Shown here piece after piece: positions 38,408-48,504 of a DNA stretch of 64,000 nucleotides. The notes under the pieces are model-generated. The model worked only from the letters and a program-made list of their open reading frames with translations, had not been told where the DNA came from and ran no database searches. The stretch lies in assembly GCA_013152475.1 (NCBI GenBank), contig JAADGH010000078.1:1-64000 (forward strand). Reading direction: 5' to 3'. The stretch's first letter is position 1, and the number at the start of each line of letters is the position of its first letter. Made by a program: the position numbers and the translations under genes. This DNA is from Planctomycetota bacterium (GTDB lineage: Bacteria; Planctomycetota; Brocadiia; JAADGH01).

Positions 38408-38869
38408 ATGAAGCAGGACCCACTCCTGGACCTTGTGGAGAAACGCATGCAAACGGGGATCATCAGCCGGGATGGCTTTCTCGGCGGCGACAAACGCCGT
38501 CTCATCGAGATTCTCATGGCCGACGAGGCCGAGATGAACCGCCTTGGCATAGACCACCAACAGATCGCCGAGACGCTGCAACACCTTCTCGACGCAGGCA
38601 AGCCCGGTCTCGGCACGGAAGTGGAGGTGGACGGCAAGTTCCTCGTCAACGTCGAGACGGTGCGCGGCAAGCTCCCCTGCCCCTGGCCCGGTGACGGACT
38701 CTTTCCCAAGACCAATGTGCGCGTGAAGAGAATCGATACCGGCGAGGAGATCGTCTACACCGCAATGGGGGTTCATCTCATCCGAAAGCACGGGTTCTAT
38801 GAAGGCAAGGGATCCTACTTCCGGCTGGAGCCGGCGAAGCTGAAGGAATTCCTTGACATCCAAGAGTAG
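38408..38869 (+). CDS. uncharacterised protein at the end of the nqr operon
   Basis: A 153-residue soluble protein, mixed alpha then beta. The N-terminal half is helical and charged (LLDLVEKRMQTGIISRDGFL; DKRRLIEILMADEAEMNRL). The second half is beta-rich (VEVDGKFLVNVETVRGKLP; NVRVKRIDTGEEIVYTAMGV). It has no Cys motif, signal or membrane helix. It begins nine bases after nqrF, so it is part of the operon. I do not recognise the family. A role in NQR assembly or flavin attachment is possible but unsupported. Confidence 0.7.
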   Translation: MKQDPLLDLVEKRMQTGIISRDGFLGGDKRRLIEILMADEAEMNRLGIDHQQIAETLQHLLDAGKPGLGTEVEVDGKFLVNVETVRGKLPCPWPGDGLFPKTNVRVKRIDTGEEIVYTAMGVHLIRKHGFYEGKGSYFRLEPAKLKEFLDIQE

Positions 38870-39381
38870 CCCACCCCACGGCACGGATCCCTATCAGGAC
38901 TTTCCCCATGACCTGAGCACGATCTGTCCTAACCCATGTTGATAGTATCGGTTGCTATGTTTGCTTCGCGGGACCCACATGTTGTCATCTCTGAAAGCGC
39001 GCCGTATGTCGAGTAGCGCGCCCCTTTCTTTAAAGAACTCTTTGACCCGGGGGAGAACTGAACCATTCTGCCCCAGGAGTGCGCTTTCATACCATCATTG
39101 CAAGGAGCGATTTTCGCGTCAGCGAGTATCTCAACGAAGCCATCTCGCGCGCTCGATTACCATCGATCCGCCAGATTGCTTCGTCGTCACGCGAAGCGCG
39201 TGACTCCTCACGATGACCCCTCGTGGATTCTGCAAGCCGGGTTTCGCAAGCCAAATGGCCGGCAGTGGTTACGCCTAATCCCGTCCGCACTCTGGGGAAA
39301 GTCCTGCAGGCGTCGAGCCGGGGGCGAATCGGGCGGCGTTTTGGCTCCGTGGCCACAATGCCTTTTTCTCTAAAAAAAAAC
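38870..39381. other. gene-free stretch between the nqr operon and the RiPP cassette
   Basis: No frame with a ribosome site or recognisable motif is present. It contains the palindromic repeat at 39092-39218 and ends at the promoter of the RiPP cassette. The boundary may mark the edge of an inserted block. Confidence 0.5.
39092..39218. repeat. dispersed palindromic repeat (REP-like, GCAATGA/TCATTGC family)
   Basis: The left arm starts CATCATTGCAAGGAGCGA and the right arm reads AGATTGCTTCGTCG ... TGACTCCTCACGATGACC. The arms are complementary over much of their length (AAGGAGC / GACTCCT; CAACGAAGCCATCTCG against AGATTGCTTCGTCG). This layout is the common bacterial interspersed element that flanks genes as a long hairpin. 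It lies 160 bp upstream of the RiPP promoter and is slightly degraded. Confidence 0.6.
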
Positions 39382-39410
39382 TTGACACCGTTCCGAGAAT
39401 GTGTTTAGAT
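39382..39410 (+). promoter_or_regulatory. strong sigma-70 promoter of the RiPP cassette
   Basis: Consensus TTGACA (39382-39387), a 17-bp spacer and TTAGAT (39405-39410), preceded by an A-tract of nine (39372-39380) like an UP element. The predicted start near 39417 leaves a leader of about 80 bases before the first precursor gene. No other comparable promoter was seen before the radical SAM gene, so one transcript probably covers 39.4-42.4 kb. Confidence 0.75.
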
Positions 39411-39495
39411 TCGTCATCTTTGGACGAATGGTACGCCATTGGCATGACGGCGCACCGCCGGCATTCCCAGTCCTTCATGAGACGAGAAACATCGC

Positions 39496-39669
39496 ATGCA
39501 GAAGAAAAGCCACGCGAGCGTTTACCGAAAACCGAGGATTGTCAGTGAAAAGGTCTTTGAGCAGGCGGCCCTGGCTTGTTCAGGACAGGATATGGGAACC
39601 CCCGCTGTGGTAACGGCGCGCGAAGCACTGAAGAACAACGGACAGGTTTGTCAGTACGCCCATTCATAG
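39496..39669 (+). CDS. RiPP precursor peptide 1
   Basis: A 57-residue peptide. The leader is YRKPRIVSEKVFEQAALAC (residues 10-28). The core is SGQDMGTPAVVTAREALKN (29-47), then NGQVCQYAHS. It has two Cys only (28 and 52), the second five residues before the C-terminus. First of six tandem paralogues that share the leader motif Y-x-x-P-x-[VIL]-x-[ST]-[EG]-[KR]-[VI]-FEQAAL-[AS]-C. Its core is almost the same as that of peptide 2 (differing at Q/Y, D/N, T/S, A/S, A/G, V/I) but unlike the others. It is presumably modified by the radical SAM enzyme downstream. The ribosome site is weak (GACGAG). Confidence 0.8.
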   Translation: MQKKSHASVYRKPRIVSEKVFEQAALACSGQDMGTPAVVTAREALKNNGQVCQYAHS

Positions 39670-39740
39670 GGCGGGTGGATTCTTGGGATTCGCCCGAAGT
39701 TGTGTCTGTTCTGGGTACATTGCGGCTGTGTTGTGGTAGC

Positions 39741-39914
39741 ATGAACAAGGAAACCGGCAAGAAAACCTACAGAAAACCAAGGTTGACGAGCGAAAAGATC
39801 TTCGAGCAGGCGGCCTTGGCGTGTTCGGGGTACAACATGGGGAGCCCTTCTGTGGTGACGGGCCGCGAAGCGCTGAAGAACAACGGGCAGATCTGTCAGT
39901 ACGCCCATTCGTGA
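39741..39914 (+). CDS. RiPP precursor peptide 2
   Basis: A 57-residue peptide. The leader is YRKPRLTSEKIFEQAALAC (10-28), and the core is SGYNMGSPSVVTGREALKN then NGQICQYAHS. Only conservative changes separate it from peptide 1, including an identical length and C-terminus, so the two arose by recent duplication. Cys28 and Cys52 are kept. No clear Shine-Dalgarno is seen; translation may be coupled or leaderless-like. 71 bp separate it from peptide 1. Confidence 0.8.
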   Translation: MNKETGKKTYRKPRLTSEKIFEQAALACSGYNMGSPSVVTGREALKNNGQICQYAHS

Positions 39915-40009
39915 CGGGCAAAGGGTTCTACTGTGCATCGTAGATGATCCGGGGGGAAGGTGATTTGGGCATCCTAATGATCTGCGAGATGGCAAATGGG
40001 GATATGCGA

Positions 40010-40195
40010 ATGAGAAAATCAGGTGGCAAGAAGCCCTACTTGACACCCAAGATCACAAGCGAGAAGGTGTTTGAGCAAGCAGCGCTTTCTTGCGTTGTGG
40101 CGGCGATTGTCACAGGAAATCCGCCTGTTCACGTGAACTCGGACAATCTCAAGATCAGCTACGGTTCTTCTGGCTGTGGCTACACGAGTTCCTGA
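40010..40195 (+). CDS. RiPP precursor peptide 3
   Basis: A 61-residue peptide (start at 40010 chosen to match the paralogues; in-frame ATGs occur upstream at 39977, 39989 and 40004). The leader is YLTPKITSEKVFEQAALSC (10-28). The core is VVAAIVTGNPPVHVNSDNL (29-47) then KISYGSSGCGYTSS. Cys28 and Cys56. It is the longest core of the set. The tail SSGCGYTSS is the type found in peptides 4-6 (C-G-[YF]-x-S-S). Confidence 0.82.
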   Translation: MRKSGGKKPYLTPKITSEKVFEQAALSCVVAAIVTGNPPVHVNSDNLKISYGSSGCGYTSS

Positions 40196-40245
40196 TGCAG
40201 ACGTGAGTGTCCAAAGCCCCCGTTCGAGGACTGGAGCACTAAAGT

Positions 40246-40419
40246 ATGAGAGAAGCGAGCAACAAGAGGCGCTATCTAAGACCCACGATCGTCAGTGAGA
40301 AGGTGTTTGAGCAGGCGGCACTGTCGTGCGTGGTGAGGGATATCAATTCGGCCACCACCACTCTCACTACGCTCAAGGTATCCTTGACCGGGTCGGGATG
40401 TGGCTACAGCAGCTCCTGA
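40246..40419 (+). CDS. RiPP precursor peptide 4
   Basis: A 57-residue peptide. The leader is YLRPTIVSEKVFEQAALSC (10-28). The core is VVRDINSATTTLTTLKVSL (29-47) then TGSGCGYSSS. Cys28 and Cys52. The core is rich in Thr and Ser. It shares the VV start with peptide 3, but the rest has diverged. 50 bp separate it from peptide 3. Confidence 0.83.
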   Translation: MREASNKRRYLRPTIVSEKVFEQAALSCVVRDINSATTTLTTLKVSLTGSGCGYSSS

Positions 40420-40493
40420 ACCATCATCGCCAGAGTTCCGGGAGTATCGGTAGGCTTATCGGCGATTGTCAGAAAAAACCTGGAGAACATGGT

Positions 40494-40658
40494 GTGAGAG
40501 AGCGAAACAACAAGAAACCCTATGCCAGGCCTACAGTCGTTACGGGAAGAGTGTTTGAACAGGCGGCGTTGGCTTGCACCCACGTTGCTTTTCTTGATCC
40601 CCCGGTAAACACTGCCCTGAAACACACCAATGTGTCTTGTGGGTTCACCAGCTCGTAG
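40494..40658 (+). CDS. RiPP precursor peptide 5
   Basis: A 54-residue peptide starting with GTG, with GGAG eight bases upstream. The leader is YARPTVVTGRVFEQAALAC (10-28). The core is THVAFLDPPVNTALKHTNV (29-47), then SCGFTSS. Cys28 and Cys49. Phe replaces Tyr in the C-G-[YF] ending. The leader varies at SEK to TGR, the only copy without that Glu. Confidence 0.8.
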   Translation: MRERNNKKPYARPTVVTGRVFEQAALACTHVAFLDPPVNTALKHTNVSCGFTSS

Positions 40659-40768
40659 GCCCTTGTTCCCTTGGGAAAACGCTGGCGCACCTTGGTCGGG
40701 CCGGGGGGTTCGCATTACGTTCTTGGGTTTTCGTCTTGATGCCGACAAGAGAGGCGAGAAAGTATGCC

Positions 40769-40921
40769 ATGAGTGGTACGAAAAGGAAGTACAGAAAGCC
40801 GAGAGTCGCCAGCGAGAGGGTCTTCGAGCAAGCGGCCTTGGCGTGCAGCTACGTTGCATTCGCAAATGTCATGCAGCACATGAAGTCCGAGCAGCAGACA
40901 TGCGGGTACAACAGTTCTTGA
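40769..40921 (+). CDS. RiPP precursor peptide 6
   Basis: A 50-residue peptide, the shortest. The leader is YRKPRVASERVFEQAALAC (7-25). The core is SYVAFANVMQHMKSEQQT (26-43), then CGYNSS. Cys25 and Cys45. Last precursor before the radical SAM gene, whose start codon lies 24 bp downstream, so precursor and enzyme are clearly in one operon. Confidence 0.82.
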   Translation: MSGTKRKYRKPRVASERVFEQAALACSYVAFANVMQHMKSEQQTCGYNSS

Positions 40922-40945
40922 GGATGGGCGCCTGTCCAGCGGGTT

Positions 40946-42085
40946 ATGGAAGCAGTACATGACGATGCCCCGCAAAACAATCCTGCCGCCGCGGCGGATG
41001 GCTCCCGGCTGATCCGCCAGGCCCAACGCCGAGCCGTCAAGAACGGCCGGGCCTTCGACGTGGTCGTCGAACTCACCCACCGATGTAACGTTGCCTGCCG
41101 CCACTGCTACATCCTTCCCGGCGCCCAAGAGCTGTCTCTACAGCAATGGGATGGAGTCCTCGCGCAAATGGCCGATCACGGCGTCTTTGTCCTCACCGTC
41201 ACCGGCGGGGAACCGACGCTCTATCCGGGCTTCTTCGATTTCATCGAACTCACAACGCGCTACAGCTTCGCCATTCGCCTCTTCAGCAACCTAACCACAC
41301 TGTCGGAGGTGGAGATAGATCGACTTCGCGAGGCCAACATCCTCGCGGTGGAGGCCACGATCCATTCCGCAGACCCCCAGGCCCACGACCATTTTTGCCG
41401 CTCGCCGGGCGCCTTCGAGAAGACCATTTCGACGCTGAAGCTCATGAAGGAGAAGGGATTTCCCCTCACCATCAAGACCACCTGGAGCCGGTGCAACCAC
41501 AAGGACCCCGAACGCGTGTTCCAGTTTGCCAGGGAACTGGGGATTCTTTTGAGAACGTCTCCCTCCATGACGCCGCGGCGGGACATGTCCACCAACCATT
41601 TTGACTGGCGCCTCTCGGACGACGAGCTGTTCGACGTGTTCATGGAGATCATCCGCATCACCGGCAGCAAGGAAAAATACAGCTCCTGCGACTCCTACCA
41701 ACTGCCCCCGGACGACTCGCGCTTTTGCGGCGCAGGCGTAGCAACGCTGCGCGTCGGTCCCTCGGGCAAGGTGTATCCGTGCGTCGAGATCCAGGCGTGC
41801 GTTGGCGATCTCACCGAGCAGTCCTTCGACGACATCTGGTACAATGCACCCATGCTCAAGGAGCTCCGCCGGCTTCGGGTGACCGATGCGAAGGAATGCG
41901 TGGCCTGTGCGGATCGGAAGTTCTGCGCTCGATGCCTGGGACAGGCCTACAACGAGGGAGCGGGGCTCTGCGGACCGGCGCAGGACGCCTGTCGAATCGC
42001 GAGAGTGAACCGCCGCATCTTCGAGGTGCTGAGCGAAGGCCAGGAAGCAACCGTGGAAACAAGCGGGAGACCCGAACGACAATGA
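40946..42085 (+). CDS. radical SAM/SPASM peptide maturase
   Basis: A 379-residue radical SAM enzyme. The cluster motif is Cys47-x3-Cys51-x2-Cys54 (THRCNVACRHCY), and the SAM-contact GGEP is TVTGGEPTLYP. The C-terminal SPASM domain supplies ligands for auxiliary [4Fe-4S] clusters: C261, C279, C285, C318, C321, C327, C330, C342 and C349 (e.g. CVACADRKFCARC). Such enzymes install thioether or C-C crosslinks or epimerise residues in short ribosomal peptides. Substrates here should be the six precursors directly upstream. The gene overlaps the PqqD-like gene by ATGA. The ribosome site is poor. Confidence 0.93.
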   Translation: MEAVHDDAPQNNPAAAADGSRLIRQAQRRAVKNGRAFDVVVELTHRCNVACRHCYILPGAQELSLQQWDGVLAQMADHGVFVLTVTGGEPTLYPGFFDFIELTTRYSFAIRLFSNLTTLSEVEIDRLREANILAVEATIHSADPQAHDHFCRSPGAFEKTISTLKLMKEKGFPLTIKTTWSRCNHKDPERVFQFARELGILLRTSPSMTPRRDMSTNHFDWRLSDDELFDVFMEIIRITGSKEKYSSCDSYQLPPDDSRFCGAGVATLRVGPSGKVYPCVEIQACVGDLTEQSFDDIWYNAPMLKELRRLRVTDAKECVACADRKFCARCLGQAYNEGAGLCGPAQDACRIARVNRRIFEVLSEGQEATVETSGRPERQ

Positions 42086-42375
42086 TTACCACCGACACAA
42101 CCATCCGCCGGACCTCGAACGCCGCCAGCCGGGACATCGCCGGCGAGGTCATCATCCTCTCCGCAAAGGACAGCATGCTTCACACGCTCGACGAAGTAGG
42201 CAGCGCCATCTGGAACCTGCTCGATGGACCTCGAAAAGTCGAGGAGATCGTGAACGGTCTCCTCGATCAATATGACGTCGAGCAAGGCGCGCTCCAAAAG
42301 GACGTCATCGAGTTTCTGGGGGAGCTGATGGACCGGAAACTTGTGGAAGTCTGCCCTTCTGAGCCGAACGCGTAA
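42082..42375 (+). CDS. PqqD-like RiPP recognition element protein
   Basis: A 97-residue winged-helix protein of the PqqD family: DIAGEVIILSAKDSMLHTLDEVG, of which DEVGSAIWNLLDGPRKVEEI is the hallmark, then VEQGALQKDVIEFLGELMDR. PqqD-type domains bind precursor leaders and present them to the radical SAM enzyme. It overlaps the maturase by ATGA, giving a stable pairing in expression. No protease or transporter gene follows; the next gene is convergent at 54 bp. Confidence 0.9.
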   Translation: MITTDTTIRRTSNAASRDIAGEVIILSAKDSMLHTLDEVGSAIWNLLDGPRKVEEIVNGLLDQYDVEQGALQKDVIEFLGELMDRKLVEVCPSEPNA

Positions 42376-42428
42376 GGGCCCCATGCCTCTGCAGGATATG
42401 CGTCGCCAAGAACGGCGACCGTGATGAG

Positions 42429-44678
42429 CTACCGCGCCTTCCGCTGCGGGGCGGTGGTATCCTGCGCGCAGCGAAACCCGATAAGACTGCTCTTCGTGTC
42501 CGGGTCGATCCCCCGCCGACATGCGGTTCGGATCTCATCCTTCGGGCTAAACCAGTTTCCGCCGCGCACCACACGACGCATCCCGAAATTGGGCCCCGTG
42601 GGATTGTGACTCTCGGCCCTCTTGTAGTAATCCGGCTCAAACCAATCGGCGCACCACTCCGACACGTTGCCTCCCATACCCCGCACGCCGAAGGCGGAGA
42701 CATCATCCTGGGACGAGCCCACGGGGGTGGTGTTCCCCCCGGCGGAGCAGATCACCTCTCGACTCGAACCGAACAGCCACACCGGCGTCCAGCGTTGGAC
42801 ATCGTTTTCCGGGCACCCGAGATCGTAGATACAGTTACAGCGGAGCAAATCGAACTCATTGCCCCACGGATATACACGCTTCACCTCGTTCTTGCTGTCC
42901 CACGAGCTCGCCTTCTCCCACTCCGCCTCCGTGGGCAACCGCTTCCCCGCCCACTGGCAGTAGGCCCTCGCATCCTCCCAGCTCACACCGGTCACGGGGT
43001 GGTCGCCCTTGCCCTCGGGGTAGGCGCCATTCTCCCAGTATTGGGGAGCGGGGTACTTCGCGGCCCGGACGAAACGGAGGTACTGTTCATTGGTCACCTC
43101 GTTGAGGTCGATCAGGAAGGCATCGAGCACAATCTCCCTCTGAGGGCCGGCGTCCGGCACATTCTTGTCGCCCAGCAGAAACCGCCCCGCCGAAACCAGA
43201 ACCATACCCTTCGGGACGCTCGGGAGGACGGGCTTCGGTCCTGGCGGAGCGACCTTGCCGGGCGCAGGTTTCGGGGGTTCCGGTAGAGGCGTGGCAATCG
43301 GCTTCACGGCCGCCGGTGTTGGCTTCGGCCTCGCCGGGCTCGGCCTCAAGACCGGATCGGGGCCTGGACGCGGGGCGGGCGGCCCGACGGCAACCGGGAC
43401 GGGGCGCTCCGCATGGTCCGGGCGGACATGGGGCGACGGCCCCGGCGTCGGCTCGCCCGGGCCTTCATCGGGTTTGGTCGCCGGCTCATCCTTTCCCTGG
43501 TCATCGGGCGCCTTGTCTGGGCCGTTCTTCACCCAGGTGACCGCCTCTTGCACCTCGGGCCGGTTCAGCAGATAGTAAATCCCCACCGCGCTTGTCACGA
43601 GCACAAGCGCGCAGGCAACAAGGCGGGCGAGCTGTCCCAGGAATCGGAGCCGGTCCCGGGTTCGCACGCGCCCCAGATCTATAATGACCTCCTCGCAGTT
43701 CTGGTAGCGGTGTGCAGGGTCCTTGGCCGTCATCTTGTTGATGATCCGGCAGACCGAGTCCGGCACACTTGGGTCGTACTGCTTCGGCGACGGCATGGCC
43801 TGGTTCTTGTGCTGATACATGACGGACATCAGCGTCTTGCCGTCGAAGGGCTTGCGCCCGGTCACGGCCTCGAAGAACGTAATGCCGAGGGAATAGATGT
43901 CGCTGCGCGTGTCGGCCGTCTTGCCTTCGCACTGCTCTGGAGACATGTAGAACGGGGTGCCTACAATCTGCCCGGTTATCGTCAAGCCGGTCTCTTCGGT
44001 AATGGACTTGGCCAGGCCGAAATCGGAGATCATCACCCGTCCCTCGGCGTCGATCATGATGTTGTCCGGCTTCACATCGCGATGGATGACGCCGCGCTTG
44101 TGCGCGAAGGCAAGCCCCCGGGCCACTTCCGTGATGATGCGCACAGCCTCCTCGATCGTCAGGCGTTCCCCGCTCTTGAATACCTGGCCGAGAGTCTTTC
44201 CCTTAACCAGGGCCATCTCGATGAAGTGCAGACCGCGGTCCTCGCCGACAAAATGCACGGGGACCACGTTCGGATGATCGAGCTGCGCGGCCGCCTGAGC
44301 CTCGCGCCGGAACCGCTCGACAAACTTCGGGTCGCGCCTGGTGAGAACTTCCGGCAGGACCTTGAGCGCCACGGCCTTGTCCAGGCTCAGGTTCCTGGCC
44401 TGATAAACCGTCCCCATCCCCCCCTCGCCCAGCTTCTCCAGGATCTGGTAGTGGCCCAGCGTTTCCCCGATGAGGGAGTCCTCCGCCGGCCGGTTGTCCA
44501 CCACCGTCTTGGCCTCGCCAATGGGCGTGTGGCCGTCGGGGCCGACCGTGTCGTCATCCGGGCCCACAATCCGCGTTCTGTGCCCGCACTTGGGACAGAT
44601 GACCGAGTTCCCGCCATAGGTCGAGATCACCTCGATCAGTTCGTCACAATCGGGGTTTTCGCACGGGATATTGAGCAT
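42429..44678 (-). CDS. membrane Ser/Thr protein kinase fused to FGE-sulfatase-type domain
   Basis: A protein of about 749 residues. An N-terminal zinc ribbon (CENPDCDELIEV ... CPKCGHR) is followed by a Hanks-type kinase (LGEGGMGTVY, ALKVLPE, HRDVKPDN, DFGLAKS, SPEQ). After one membrane span (LVACALVLVTSAVGIYYLL) comes a long Pro-rich linker. A periplasmic formylglycine-generating-enzyme-like (SUMF1) domain ends the protein (VTGVSWEDARAYCQWAGKRL; GGNVSEWCADWF; VVRGGNWFS). The catalytic Cys pair of true FGE is not seen after GGNW, so this domain is more likely a ligand-binding sensor. An upstream TTG gives a longer version. It follows the histidine phosphatase by 10 bp. Confidence 0.87.
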   Translation of the reverse strand: MLNIPCENPDCDELIEVISTYGGNSVICPKCGHRTRIVGPDDDTVGPDGHTPIGEAKTVVDNRPAEDSLIGETLGHYQILEKLGEGGMGTVYQARNLSLDKAVALKVLPEVLTRRDPKFVERFRREAQAAAQLDHPNVVPVHFVGEDRGLHFIEMALVKGKTLGQVFKSGERLTIEEAVRIITEVARGLAFAHKRGVIHRDVKPDNIMIDAEGRVMISDFGLAKSITEETGLTITGQIVGTPFYMSPEQCEGKTADTRSDIYSLGITFFEAVTGRKPFDGKTLMSVMYQHKNQAMPSPKQYDPSVPDSVCRIINKMTAKDPAHRYQNCEEVIIDLGRVRTRDRLRFLGQLARLVACALVLVTSAVGIYYLLNRPEVQEAVTWVKNGPDKAPDDQGKDEPATKPDEGPGEPTPGPSPHVRPDHAERPVPVAVGPPAPRPGPDPVLRPSPARPKPTPAAVKPIATPLPEPPKPAPGKVAPPGPKPVLPSVPKGMVLVSAGRFLLGDKNVPDAGPQREIVLDAFLIDLNEVTNEQYLRFVRAAKYPAPQYWENGAYPEGKGDHPVTGVSWEDARAYCQWAGKRLPTEAEWEKASSWDSKNEVKRVYPWGNEFDLLRCNCIYDLGCPENDVQRWTPVWLFGSSREVICSAGGNTTPVGSSQDDVSAFGVRGMGGNVSEWCADWFEPDYYKRAESHNPTGPNFGMRRVVRGGNWFSPKDEIRTACRRGIDPDTKSSLIGFRCAQDTTAPQRKAR

Positions 44679-44688
44679 CTCATCGTCG

Positions 44689-45321
44689 CTAAAAATCCGC
44701 CGCCGCCTCGTCGCGCAGACCGGCAAGATGGCTTACATCATTTAGACGTGCGAGGATGGTTCGGTGTTTCGAGATGTCGAAGAGGGTCAGGCTGCACGTA
44801 TCGAGCCGCACACTCCAGAATTTCTCAACCCCGAGGCCGAGGAGACCCAGGATAACCACCTTGAGAACCACGCGGTGTGAGACCACCGCGACCTCGCCGT
44901 CATGCCGCGCAGCGACGTCGAGGATGGCTGGCAGTGATCGTTTCCTCACGTCCTCCAGGCCTTCTCCATTGGGGAACGTCACGCCCTCCGGCGTGGTCTC
45001 CCACTGGCGGAAAAGGTCCGGATACTCCTCGCGGACGACCGTCTCCGGTTCCCCTTGCCAGTCGCCGTAGTCGATGTCCGTCACCGCGTCGAGCGTTGCA
45101 AGCGTTATCTGGCGGCGCGCGGCGATCGGCGTCGCCGTTTGCACGCAGCGTTGAAGCGGACCGGTGTAGACGGCCTCAAGCGCACGGTCCTTCAGCGCCT
45201 CGCCGACCCGCTCTGCCTGCTTCAGCCCCCGGTCCCCGAGCGGAATATCGGCCCGTCCCCGGAAAATTTTGTCCCGGTTCCAGTCTGTTTCCCCATGTCG
45301 AATTAGGATGAGTGTCGCCAT
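44689..45321 (-). CDS. histidine phosphatase (phosphoglycerate mutase-like/CobC family)
   Basis: A 210-residue branch-1 histidine phosphatase. The phosphohistidine site is LIRHGETDWN, the second His is VVSHRVVLK, and the substrate-pocket Glu and Arg appear in GDWQGEP and TGPLQRC. Members dephosphorylate phosphoglycerate, alpha-ribazole phosphate or sugar phosphates; this one is not distinguishable. It starts six bases after the epimerase stop and precedes the kinase gene by 10 bp. Confidence 0.87.
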   Translation of the reverse strand: MATLILIRHGETDWNRDKIFRGRADIPLGDRGLKQAERVGEALKDRALEAVYTGPLQRCVQTATPIAARRQITLATLDAVTDIDYGDWQGEPETVVREEYPDLFRQWETTPEGVTFPNGEGLEDVRKRSLPAILDVAARHDGEVAVVSHRVVLKVVILGLLGLGVEKFWSVRLDTCSLTLFDISKHRTILARLNDVSHLAGLRDEAAADF

Positions 45322-46155: not shown

Positions 46156-48504
46156 TTATTTCTTCTTCTGGATGAAATAATGGTCGAGGATATACTTTGT
46201 GATGATCGGCATCTCGTCCTTGTGGATCCATCCCTTGCGCTTCTTGTCCATGCGGTTGATGCTGACCAGCCACTCCTTCTCTGTCTTTTTCTTGTATTTG
46301 GCCCGGTTCAGGTATTCGTAGTCGTGGCATTCGGTGCAGCGGACTTCAAACGCCTTCTTGGGATCGGTGATCTCCTTCTTGACCATCGCAGCGGCTTCCT
46401 TGGCCATTTTCCTGCTCTGGTCGGCGTCATAACCGGGCAGGTCGTCCTCGGCGGGGATGTTGTCCCACTGCGCCCCGATGTCTACCCACTCGACGAAGAG
46501 CCTCTTCTCCGCCTCGGTGAGGGGCTTGTTGGGCGGCATCTGCGTCATGGGGCCTTTGTAGCAGCATCGCCGATCGGCGAAGGCAAGCTGCTTGCCATAG
46601 ATTCGCCAGATGAGCGGGCTGTGCCGCGCCGCGCTGGGGATGACCAGCTTGCCTACACGATACTTTCCCGCCTGGAGGAGGCTTTCGTAGGCCTGGTTAA
46701 ACAGGGCGGCGTTGATTTTGCGCCCGCGGCAGCCCTTGCGATGGAAGACAAGATCGAAGCCGGGACGCAGGTCCAGCCCCCCGGCCTGGGTCTTGGCGTC
46801 ATGGCAGCCCGCGATGCCGCACCTCTTCTCGATGATCGGCATGATGTCGCGCCGGAAATCCACCGTGCGCCGCTTCTCCTTCGGGGGGGCCACGAAGTGC
46901 GGCGGCTTGCGCATGGCCTGGCAGTCCAGATTCGGCAGGGCCGTCTCCCGGTTCTCATGGCACCCGATGCACAGTCGTTTCTCGCCGGGCCGGACCCAGA
47001 CCCACGTGAGCTGCGTCTCGATGGCGCAGTAGTTCTTATCGAGCGTCTGCAGGGACAGCACCGTGTCGGCGGGGACTTCAATGTGGAACGAACCGTCGGG
47101 CTCGACGGGTGCATAGCCGAGGATATTCTTCTGCTCAAAGTTGTTCCCGCCGTTGCTGCCGGAGCCAAAGCTCATCTGCAGGATGTCGATCACGATTCGC
47201 CGGTGCTTCTTCGGATCGGTGTCTTTGAAACCGAATCCCTCCATGACGCGGACGTACTTGATCTCCCCCGGTTTGGCAGGGGGCAGCTCACCGACGACGA
47301 CACGTTTGTCCTGCTTTGGGCGGTCGGAGAGGTAGGCGTTGGTGCAGAGGAACGTCCCGGTTTTCTTGCCCGGAATCACCATGCTGGGGATCACTGGGGG
47401 GGGCGTGCGCTTGTAAATGGCCAGGGCGTCGTAGTCCTGCGCGTTCGGATCGTCGAAGATCAGTTTGCCCGGGCGACCGGTCTTGAAGTCGAAGTAGTAG
47501 ATGCCCAGGTGCGGGTCCTCGGAGGGGTCCTCACGAAGCGGTCCTGTGGCATGGCCTGGAGAGAAGGAGCAGATCATCCCACCGTTGGGCAGCGGATAGG
47601 GCGAGGCATACCGGCCTGCCATGTTGTGGCCGTTGTAGATCTCGCCGGGGGTGAGGATTTTGCGCGAGTGAAGGGGCTTCTCCATGAGCACACTGCTCAG
47701 GCCGCCGCTATTGTAGTGGCGGTGGCCGGCGGTATCGACGTAGACGACACGGCCGTCGGTCAACTGCTCGGAATAGGACTTGGTGTTGTTGCCCTCCGTG
47801 TATCCGCGATGGTTGCCCATGAAGGGCATGAAGACGGTTCCGTCGGGATTGCATGTGGCCAGAGCGAATATGCCGGCGACGCCCTGGTGGTTGCCGTGGT
47901 GCTGCCAGCTCGTGAAGAGGAGCCTGCCGTCATTCAGGACGATTGTCGCCGTGTCGGAGCTGAGATTAAACGTGATGCGTTCCGCACCGGAGCCGTCGGG
48001 GTTGCAGGTATAGAGGACTTTCGTCGTGTCGCGATCGTACTCGTCTCGGAAGCCGGTCTTGTCAGAGCTGAAAACGATCTTTCCGTTGGGCAGGTAGTTG
48101 GGGTCGATGCAGTCGCCCATGTTCTTCGTGATCTGGCGCAGGCCCGTGCCATCGACATTCATCTCGTAAATATTGTATTTCTCGTTTCGGTCTTTGGTTT
48201 TCTTGGCGGCGAAGATGACCTTCTTGCCGTCATAAGACAGGTCGGGCTGGATGGCGGAGGCGAAATGCTTGCTCGTCAGGTCCGTTAGCTTGCCATCGGG
48301 CCGAGCGGGGATCAGCGTGCACAGCCGGGCCTCATCCGGACGCCGGACGACGCGGAACTGCTCCATGTGCAGCCGGCATCGGCCGTTGGGGTAATTGGGC
48401 ACCTGGCAGAACACAATGCCTTTGATTTCCTGCTTCGGCGCGGCATCACAAAGCAAAGGCAAGATAAACATGGCAGCGAAAAGTGGCAATATGCAGCGTC
48501 TCAT
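46156..48504 (-). CDS. exported HzsA-related haem protein with TolB-like propeller
   Basis: A 782-residue protein. A signal peptide (RRCILPLFAAMFILPLLCDA) is followed by an N-terminal TolB/WD-like propeller (NIYEMNVDGTGLRQITKNMG; LFSSDKTGFRDEYDRDT-like IVFSSDKTGFRDEYDR). The middle segment typical of hydrazine-synthase-alpha relatives ends in CIGCHENRETALPN. The C-terminus holds CGIAGCHDA (C-x3-CH) and CTECHDYEYL. The overall order follows what is annotated as HzsA-related in planctomycetes. There is no sign of the other hydrazine synthase subunits, so anammox chemistry should not be inferred. Start at 48504 follows GGAGGTGA. Confidence 0.75.
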   Translation of the reverse strand: MRRCILPLFAAMFILPLLCDAAPKQEIKGIVFCQVPNYPNGRCRLHMEQFRVVRRPDEARLCTLIPARPDGKLTDLTSKHFASAIQPDLSYDGKKVIFAAKKTKDRNEKYNIYEMNVDGTGLRQITKNMGDCIDPNYLPNGKIVFSSDKTGFRDEYDRDTTKVLYTCNPDGSGAERITFNLSSDTATIVLNDGRLLFTSWQHHGNHQGVAGIFALATCNPDGTVFMPFMGNHRGYTEGNNTKSYSEQLTDGRVVYVDTAGHRHYNSGGLSSVLMEKPLHSRKILTPGEIYNGHNMAGRYASPYPLPNGGMICSFSPGHATGPLREDPSEDPHLGIYYFDFKTGRPGKLIFDDPNAQDYDALAIYKRTPPPVIPSMVIPGKKTGTFLCTNAYLSDRPKQDKRVVVGELPPAKPGEIKYVRVMEGFGFKDTDPKKHRRIVIDILQMSFGSGSNGGNNFEQKNILGYAPVEPDGSFHIEVPADTVLSLQTLDKNYCAIETQLTWVWVRPGEKRLCIGCHENRETALPNLDCQAMRKPPHFVAPPKEKRRTVDFRRDIMPIIEKRCGIAGCHDAKTQAGGLDLRPGFDLVFHRKGCRGRKINAALFNQAYESLLQAGKYRVGKLVIPSAARHSPLIWRIYGKQLAFADRRCCYKGPMTQMPPNKPLTEAEKRLFVEWVDIGAQWDNIPAEDDLPGYDADQSRKMAKEAAAMVKKEITDPKKAFEVRCTECHDYEYLNRAKYKKKTEKEWLVSINRMDKKRKGWIHKDEMPIITKYILDHYFIQKKK

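Follow-up and report, generated by a model that had tools for sequence, protein, structure and literature searches.

A cassette of six tandem precursor peptides, a radical SAM/SPASM enzyme and a lasso/LPP-type recognition element in a Planctomycetota genome bin

Genes of the cassette

The DNA analysed here, hereafter the window, is a stretch of 64,000 nucleotides (contig JAADGH010000078.1, assembly GCA_013152475.1, Planctomycetota, Brocadiia) and corresponds to contig C183 of a 250-contig, 6.5 Mb genome bin that is 95% complete with 6.9% contamination. It carries a real cassette of the type that makes ribosomally synthesized and post-translationally modified peptides (RiPPs). Six short precursor genes in tandem, A1 to A6, are followed by genes for a radical S-adenosylmethionine (SAM)/SPASM enzyme, here called the maturase, and for a PqqD-like RiPP recognition element (RRE; Table 1); precursors with a leader and a variable core next to these two proteins are the general mark of radical SAM RiPPs. 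The first-pass annotation of this DNA had described six precursors of 50–61 residues, a maturase gene 24 bp past the last of them and an overlapping PqqD-like gene, and all of this is confirmed, the overlap being 4 bp. Its reading of the arrangement as precursor-maturase-RRE logic is supported by Pfam domains and gene order. It had let the cassette begin at 39382, where a promoter-like site starts; such consensus sites occur twice in 39200–42500 against 0.7 times in shuffled sequence, and the match alone is no evidence of function. No Rfam match was found across 38800–42500 and no tRNA gene in the whole window. As had also been noted, no exporter or protease was seen adjoining the cassette, judging by eye from open reading frame (ORF) lists and from Pfam searches of the two flanking genes.

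All six precursors share the leader YxxP-x6-[VI]-FEQAAL[AS]C. This leader motif occurs six times in the window and never in 50 mononucleotide shuffles, so that its six-fold occurrence is not due to chance. A leader-peptide profile detects eight copies in the genome, namely the six of the window, one on contig C158 and one on C71, and all eight end in Ser; the two unlinked copies and the shared last residue go beyond the first-pass annotation. The C158 copy is a normal precursor ending in CGYHHS, on a 3.7 kb contig (L024) without a radical SAM match. The C71 copy (L001:1447-1602) keeps FEQAALAC, ends in CGWHSS and has a core that resembles that of C158. Among the six window copies and the C158 copy, synonymous and nonsynonymous divergence (pS and pN) of the FEQAAL[AS]C codons are 0.84 and 0.03, and this motif is under purifying selection. 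The pN/pS ratio is 0.23 for the 19-codon block from YxxP to Cys and 0.39 for the last six codons, and the terminal Ser is encoded by four codon types among the seven copies checked. The cores are alike by eye in the pairs A1/A2, A3/A4 and A5/A6, and no hydrophobic signal sequence was seen in the leader by the same means.

Searches of NCBIfam and Pfam at E<=1 returned no convincing family for the six window precursors, nor did NCBIfam at E<=0.1 for three related ones. Weak matches to purine-nucleoside phosphorylase (0.03), adenoviral fibre (0.05) and NapG (0.06) were taken as chance. The earlier claim that the leader resembles no named family holds in this respect; it does not hold for the YxxP part, which is a known RRE-binding motif of the precursors of lasso peptides and of linear polyphosphorylated peptides (LPPs; PMC13381572).

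The maturase matches the Pfam families Radical_SAM (1.4e-18) and SPASM (3e-8), with a CxxxCxxC motif at residues 47–54 and SPASM cysteines at 261, 279, 318, 321, 327 and 330, all of them invariant or nearly so in an alignment of 15 sequences. Its best NCBIfam models belong to heme-pathway and mycofactocin/PqqE enzymes and all lie far under cut-off, as do the curated SkfB, StsB and AlbA models and, for relatives of the maturase, PapB. SkfB is the solved structure nearest to the maturase, whether sequences are compared (E 3.9e-21) or folds with Foldseek (E 7e-14; 24% identity). The AlphaFold model behind the latter comparison, made from four sequences with a mean predicted local distance difference test (pLDDT) score of 62.6, was relied on only in its barrel half and in the comparison with SkfB. 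SkfB is a thioether-forming enzyme, going by the title of a reference cited in PMC4289311, and thioether formation is a first guess for the chemistry of the maturase.

The PqqD-like protein (Pfam PqqD, 6.8e-19) is closest among NCBIfam models to a Bacillota lasso chaperone (NF033536, 62 bits against a cut-off of 80) and among solved structures to PbaB1 (9x90, E 3e-12), TbiB1 (5v1u) and LppB (9x8z). In LppB, D70 hydrogen-bonds the Tyr of the leader and F74 makes packing contact with the Pro (PMC13381572). The window RRE has, by our reading of the alignment, Asp and Phe at these places, within QKDVIEFL, and the Trp-preferring PbaB1 has Gln at the D70 position. Asp occupies that position in eight of nine family RREs read by eye (the window, L022, L023, L040, L041, L067, L068 and L069); L038 has Glu.

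Table 1. Features of the cassette and of related loci (window positions unless a locus is given).
Feature	Position	Strand	Remarks
Sigma-70-like promoter site, TTGACA-18 nt-TAGATT	39382..39411	+	10/12 consensus bases; ahead of cassette
Precursor A1, 57 aa	39496..39669	+	Ends CQYAHS; core predicted from, or just before, the Cys of AL-A-C
Precursor A2, 57 aa	39741..39914	+	Ends CQYAHS; 72% identity to A1
Precursor A3, 61 aa	40010..40195	+	Ends CGYTSS; alternative in-frame ATG at 40004, 39989, 39977, 39944
Precursor A4, 57 aa	40246..40419	+	Ends CGYSSS
Precursor A5, 54 aa, GTG start	40494..40658	+	Ends CGFTSS
Precursor A6, 50 aa	40769..40921	+	Ends CGYNSS; alternative ATG at 40739
Radical SAM/SPASM maturase, 379 aa	40946..42085	+	Pfam; 15-sequence alignment; nearest solved structure SkfB
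PqqD-like RRE, 97 aa	42082..42375	+	Lasso/LPP type; Asp at LppB D70 position
Second YxxP, Ser-ending precursor family, ..EVLA.GCK...PPCW.A.C...GS	L074:7669-7842 and L081:9708-9854	-	
Endomicrobia signal-peptidase-like protein	L067:10170-10511, L068:10151-10525, L069:10135-10485		

Relatives, their operons and genes on other contigs

A scan for FEQAAL[AS]C over a genome collection of 84,980 species matched 29 stretches, three of which were confirmed by tblastn; all three lie in Endomicrobia metagenome-assembled genomes (MAGs), with one such precursor per genome. Within the phylum of the window, a 15-row profile (E<=0.001) detected precursors in 12 of 392 genomes including the window's own, in 25 rows of which eight belong to that genome. 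A regular expression that required a Cys 3–7 residues past the Glu of FE and specified no ending found 25 precursors. The Cys was thus partly built into the expression, and its exact position and the peptide ending were not. The C71 copy and two precursors of genome G200 were missed by it and read by hand, giving a total of 28 with the three Endomicrobia copies. Weak matches in G024, G121 and G008 (E 0.004–0.007) stand outside all counts, that in G024 lying in a stretch which by eye resembles housekeeping genes. Also left out were Ser-ending peptides without the Cys-at-18 pattern described below (L041 with its copies L043 and L059; L046; L050) and a peptide of L049, whose leader differs.

Two residues are fixed across the family. 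Ser is the last residue in 28 of 28 precursors, and Cys lies exactly 18 residues past the leader Tyr (Tyr+18) in all 27 with a readable YxxP. In the 25 precursors found by the regular expression, the four residues up to this Cys always fit [ASG]-[LIV]-[ASG]-C, and the core, counted from the Cys, spans 17 to 34 residues and contains two cysteines (22/25) or three (3/25). Ser makes up 7% of core interiors. One genome, G246 (L108, L109, L110 and L111), has three unlinked precursors on three contigs and a maturase relative on a fourth; its cores are similar (CGKLPTG...), with the second Cys in DC and the ending PNSTS.

Operons were surveyed with hidden Markov models (HMMs) built from family members (E<=1e-4). 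Seven loci (L022, L023, L067, L068, L069, L102 and L103) combine precursor, RRE and radical SAM/SPASM genes with a kinase-like gene and a signal-peptidase-like (SpI-like) gene, whose products are closest to Sec11 and archaeal signal peptidase. Each Endomicrobia MAG holds these five genes in one short operon. Downstream of the Endomicrobia operons (L067:10537-11373, L068:11289-11993, L069:10490-11326 and beyond) lies a gene which by eye encodes an ExeA-like ATPase; in L068 and L069 a very large protein of surface type, also named by eye, begins there as well. L107 has kinase, precursor and RRE genes and a radical SAM gene truncated at the contig end. In the window, L104 and L105, the precursors are accompanied by an RRE and a radical SAM gene, with no kinase or SpI-like match in the stretch examined; an NTP-transferase match lies about 5 kb away in L104, and the same HMM has no match in the window. 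A radical SAM gene is present in the locus of 17 of the 25 precursors found by the regular expression and was not found in the stretch examined for the other eight. In an anammox-type genome of the same class as the window, L041:215-3996 comprises a kinase, an RRE, a radical SAM gene, a Ser-ending YxxP peptide with CCC and an SpI-like gene, beyond which an apparent polysaccharide export gene was named by eye.

Co-occurrence of these peptides with the maturase clade had been proposed as a check on the cassette, and it is borne out. A maturase relative (E<=1e-25) is present in 10 of the 12 precursor genomes against 1.0 expected, a figure uncorrected for kinship, and in 9 of 11 when the window's genome is set aside. 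Such relatives occur in 33 of the 392 genomes overall, both scans being assumed to cover the same 392.

The kinase-like and SpI-like genes of the relatives, which the first-pass annotation did not mention, are matched in the window's bin on other contigs only. The kinase profile matches C61 (E 3e-19), C12 (5e-17) and C157 (3e-12), and the SpI-like profile matches C12 and C204. The C12 kinase hits PF07475 (E 6.8e-6) at 26 bits, under the 33-bit cut-off. The C204 SpI-like protein has both Ser and Lys by eye, and C204 also carries a PF14907 NTP transferase. On C170, a relative of the YxxP peptide of C12 (50% identical) adjoins a radical SAM gene; the two belong to a second precursor family (Table 1), matches to which have RRE, radical SAM and kinase genes as neighbours within a single locus in G213 and G345. 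Of these matches, that in G213 contains a stop and that in G345 is weak (E 2e-4); the precursor pattern selected no peptide in either, and the SpI-like and NTP matches of G345 fall in overlapping ORFs. Since the second family is split over C170 and C12 in the window's bin and appears together in relatives, action in trans is plausible for the window, whose bin, as this suggests, scatters over contigs parts that relatives seem to keep together. Neither the neighbours of other PqqD genes (C11, C5 and C22) nor those of a radical SAM match on C156 gave a precursor-pattern or kinase-HMM match in the stretches examined.

A different kinase gene (42429-44726, -) directly adjoins the cassette on the opposite strand; its product is a fusion of a Ser/Thr protein kinase with an FGE-sulfatase domain. 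Farther along, a hydrazine synthase alpha domain (PF18582) is matched at 46954-47268 (-). This domain has 11 matches in the window's genome against 1–2 in each of six same-class genomes tested, being present in all six and in neither of two genomes outside the class. By this distribution the class is probably that of the anammox bacteria.

Comparison with known systems and alternative explanations

The LPPs of Bacillota (Popov et al., 2026; PMC13381572) are among the systems nearest to the family. Their precursors carry the motif YxxPxVLxHQxIxFETxxS; cleavage by LppS follows the Thr, and Ser3 of the core is the residue that LppK phosphorylates. By our own count Ser3 is Tyr+18, the position of the invariant Cys in the window family. 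Both systems have a discrete RRE, a YxxP leader, an FE pair between YxxP and core and a notable Tyr+18 residue, and the related operons share with LPP clusters an HprK-like kinase, an archaeal-type SpI-like protein and, near some of them, a PF14907-type NTP transferase. Unlike LPP clusters, the cassette includes a radical SAM/SPASM enzyme, has six tandem precursors instead of one to three per cluster, and lacks a kinase or peptidase in cis; the family has Cys instead of Ser at Tyr+18, ends in Ser throughout and is found in the window's phylum and in Endomicrobia. From the LPP cluster set, kinase and SpI-like profiles match other contigs only, and no MsbA-like transporter was seen by eye in cis. 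The LPP motif is not matched either: five of the six window precursors read YxxPx[IVL]..E..FEQAAL[AS]C, A5 has Gly for the first Glu, FE comes two residues earlier, and Cys replaces Ser. Cluster content and motif thus differ, and the cassette does not belong with the LPPs. The words 'radical', 'Planctomycet' and 'Elusimicrob' do not appear in the LPP paper.

With paeninodin-type lasso peptides the cassette shares the RRE type and the C-terminal Ser, which is the site phosphorylated by PadeK in paeninodin (PMC9266682). It differs in having Tyr and not Trp in the leader and in its radical SAM enzyme, and neither B2 protease nor lasso cyclase was seen by eye among the ORFs adjoining the cassette, no genome-wide search having been made. 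SkfB and other sactipeptide or ranthipeptide maturases are likewise radical SAM/SPASM enzymes, but the distance in sequence and in curated model scores given above sets the maturase apart from them. The SynChlorMet cassette (ScmC, ScmD, ScmE and ScmF) also combines PqqD-like and radical SAM/SPASM proteins, and two kinases of the family, when scanned against NCBIfam, both match ScmC best (5.6e-6 and 4e-4); in contrast to the window, SynChlorMet has two radical SAM models, and every match is far under cut-off. The open-licence literature searched does not name SynChlorMet and describes no RiPP that combines a radical SAM enzyme with an HprK/HPr kinase, although absence there is weak evidence. 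The family belongs to none of the named families tested, and no description of it was found in the literature searched.

We favour, at a probability of roughly 0.55, the reading that the cassette makes a radical SAM RiPP whose leader is recognized in the LPP/lasso manner and cut off within AL[AS]C, and whose core has two cysteines and a C-terminal Ser that is probably phosphorylated in trans. The RRE would bind YxxP as in lasso and LPP systems and present the precursor to the maturase, whose modification of the core would most likely involve one conserved Cys or both, in a linkage of the thioether type. One maturase may accept the cores of all six precursors, and those of the two unlinked copies perhaps as well, a tolerance suggested by the gene content. 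The kinase that would phosphorylate the invariant C-terminal Ser is an HprK-like one from another part of the genome, and an SpI-like enzyme acting in trans would cut inside AL[AS]C at A-x-A/C, which makes the Cys the first residue, or, if homology with LPP is the guide, two residues before that, which leaves L-A-C with the Cys third. The predicted product is a family of 25–36 residue two-Cys peptides with C-terminal phosphoserine. Taken with the paeninodin site, the shared LPP and lasso parts make the family look like LPP machinery to which a radical SAM step and a lasso-type phosphorylation site have been joined. More tentatively, and at somewhat less than even odds, we propose a RiPP class in which a two-Cys core receives both radical SAM/SPASM modification and HprK-like (poly)phosphorylation of its last Ser and is released by an SpI-like protease. 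In the window's bacterium this system would be combinatorial, one maturase-RRE pair serving eight precursors scattered over the genome, with kinase and protease in trans.

Several observations weigh against this reading. Contig C183 itself has no kinase or SpI-like match at E<=0.01, and with an estimated 6.9% contamination the contigs that carry the trans genes could be foreign. On C12 the kinase and SpI-like genes adjoin a different YxxP precursor family, also Ser-ending, and the SpI-like protein there has the Ser but by eye lacks the usual Lys (TGGD). In the Endomicrobia SpI-like proteins a Cys replaces the catalytic Ser (GGCMRP) and the Lys is absent, whereas the Lys aligns in the other five relatives; these proteins are possibly a cysteine-type variant or inactive. 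In sequence, the kinases of the operons bear only a weak likeness to HprK (ScmC 5.6e-6; HprK_rel_B 1.7e-5), the comparison with an HPr kinase structure gave E 0.11, and the target of LppK is a Ser near the core start and not the last residue. Nor can the reaction of the maturase be read off its relatives, since it is 22–30% identical to the 14 aligned with it, and its model falls below a pLDDT of 50 in 241–267 and 278–345. The C71 copy has no YxxP in its open frame and may therefore be decayed. Finally, the search profiles include the fixed residues, so that very different relatives would be missed.

A first alternative is a self-contained radical SAM RiPP bearing a thioether of the sactipeptide or ranthipeptide kind, or another crosslink, and no phosphate, in which the Ser is kept for maturase recognition or export and the kinase and SpI-like genes are optional. 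The window, L104 and L105 lack a kinase in the stretch examined, two or three cysteines are present in all 25 cores, and SkfB, the nearest solved structure, forms thioethers, going by the title cited above. Yet the terminal Ser is equally invariant in loci with and without the kinase, the genome has its three kinase-profile matches, and the C170/C12 split of the second family suggests that such parts are scattered in it; we regard the alternative as unlikely, though deserving serious consideration. It is much harder to see in the radical SAM gene a mere bystander of a pathway that makes a genuine LPP or lasso peptide. The RRE, YxxP leader, FE pair and Tyr+18 residue are LPP-like, but kinase, SpI-like protein, NTP transferase, transporter and cyclase were not seen in cis, the radical SAM gene sits between precursors and RRE and is in the operon in seven of seven full operons, and the silence of the LPP paper on radical enzymes also speaks against this explanation, which we consider very improbable.

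The combination of a radical SAM/SPASM enzyme with PqqD would also fit a redox cofactor made from a peptide, following pyrroloquinoline quinone (PQQ) or mycofactocin logic. The PqqE and mycofactocin models do reach 93 bits each, but this is far under their curated cut-offs of 381 and 265, and a single cofactor is at odds with a genome that has eight precursors whose cores vary; this is the least probable explanation of all. Lastly, the small ORFs might be no substrates but toxins, signals or lipoproteins, the maturase acting on another protein, and the eight precursors without a radical SAM gene nearby would agree with this. Against it stand the match of YxxP to the RRE type, the leader, in which no hydrophobic signal sequence was seen by eye, and the co-occurrence of precursor and maturase across genomes, and there is little chance that it is right.

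Significance of the family

To our knowledge, few RiPPs are known from these little-studied lineages. Through its RRE motif, kinase and peptidase, the family links radical SAM RiPPs to the phosphorylated lasso and LPP peptides. With Cys at Tyr+18 and Ser at the end both fixed, direct and inexpensive tests can show which residue each enzyme touches, and the six natural cores set before one enzyme provide a ready set of substrates for a radical SAM maturase that may be tolerant.

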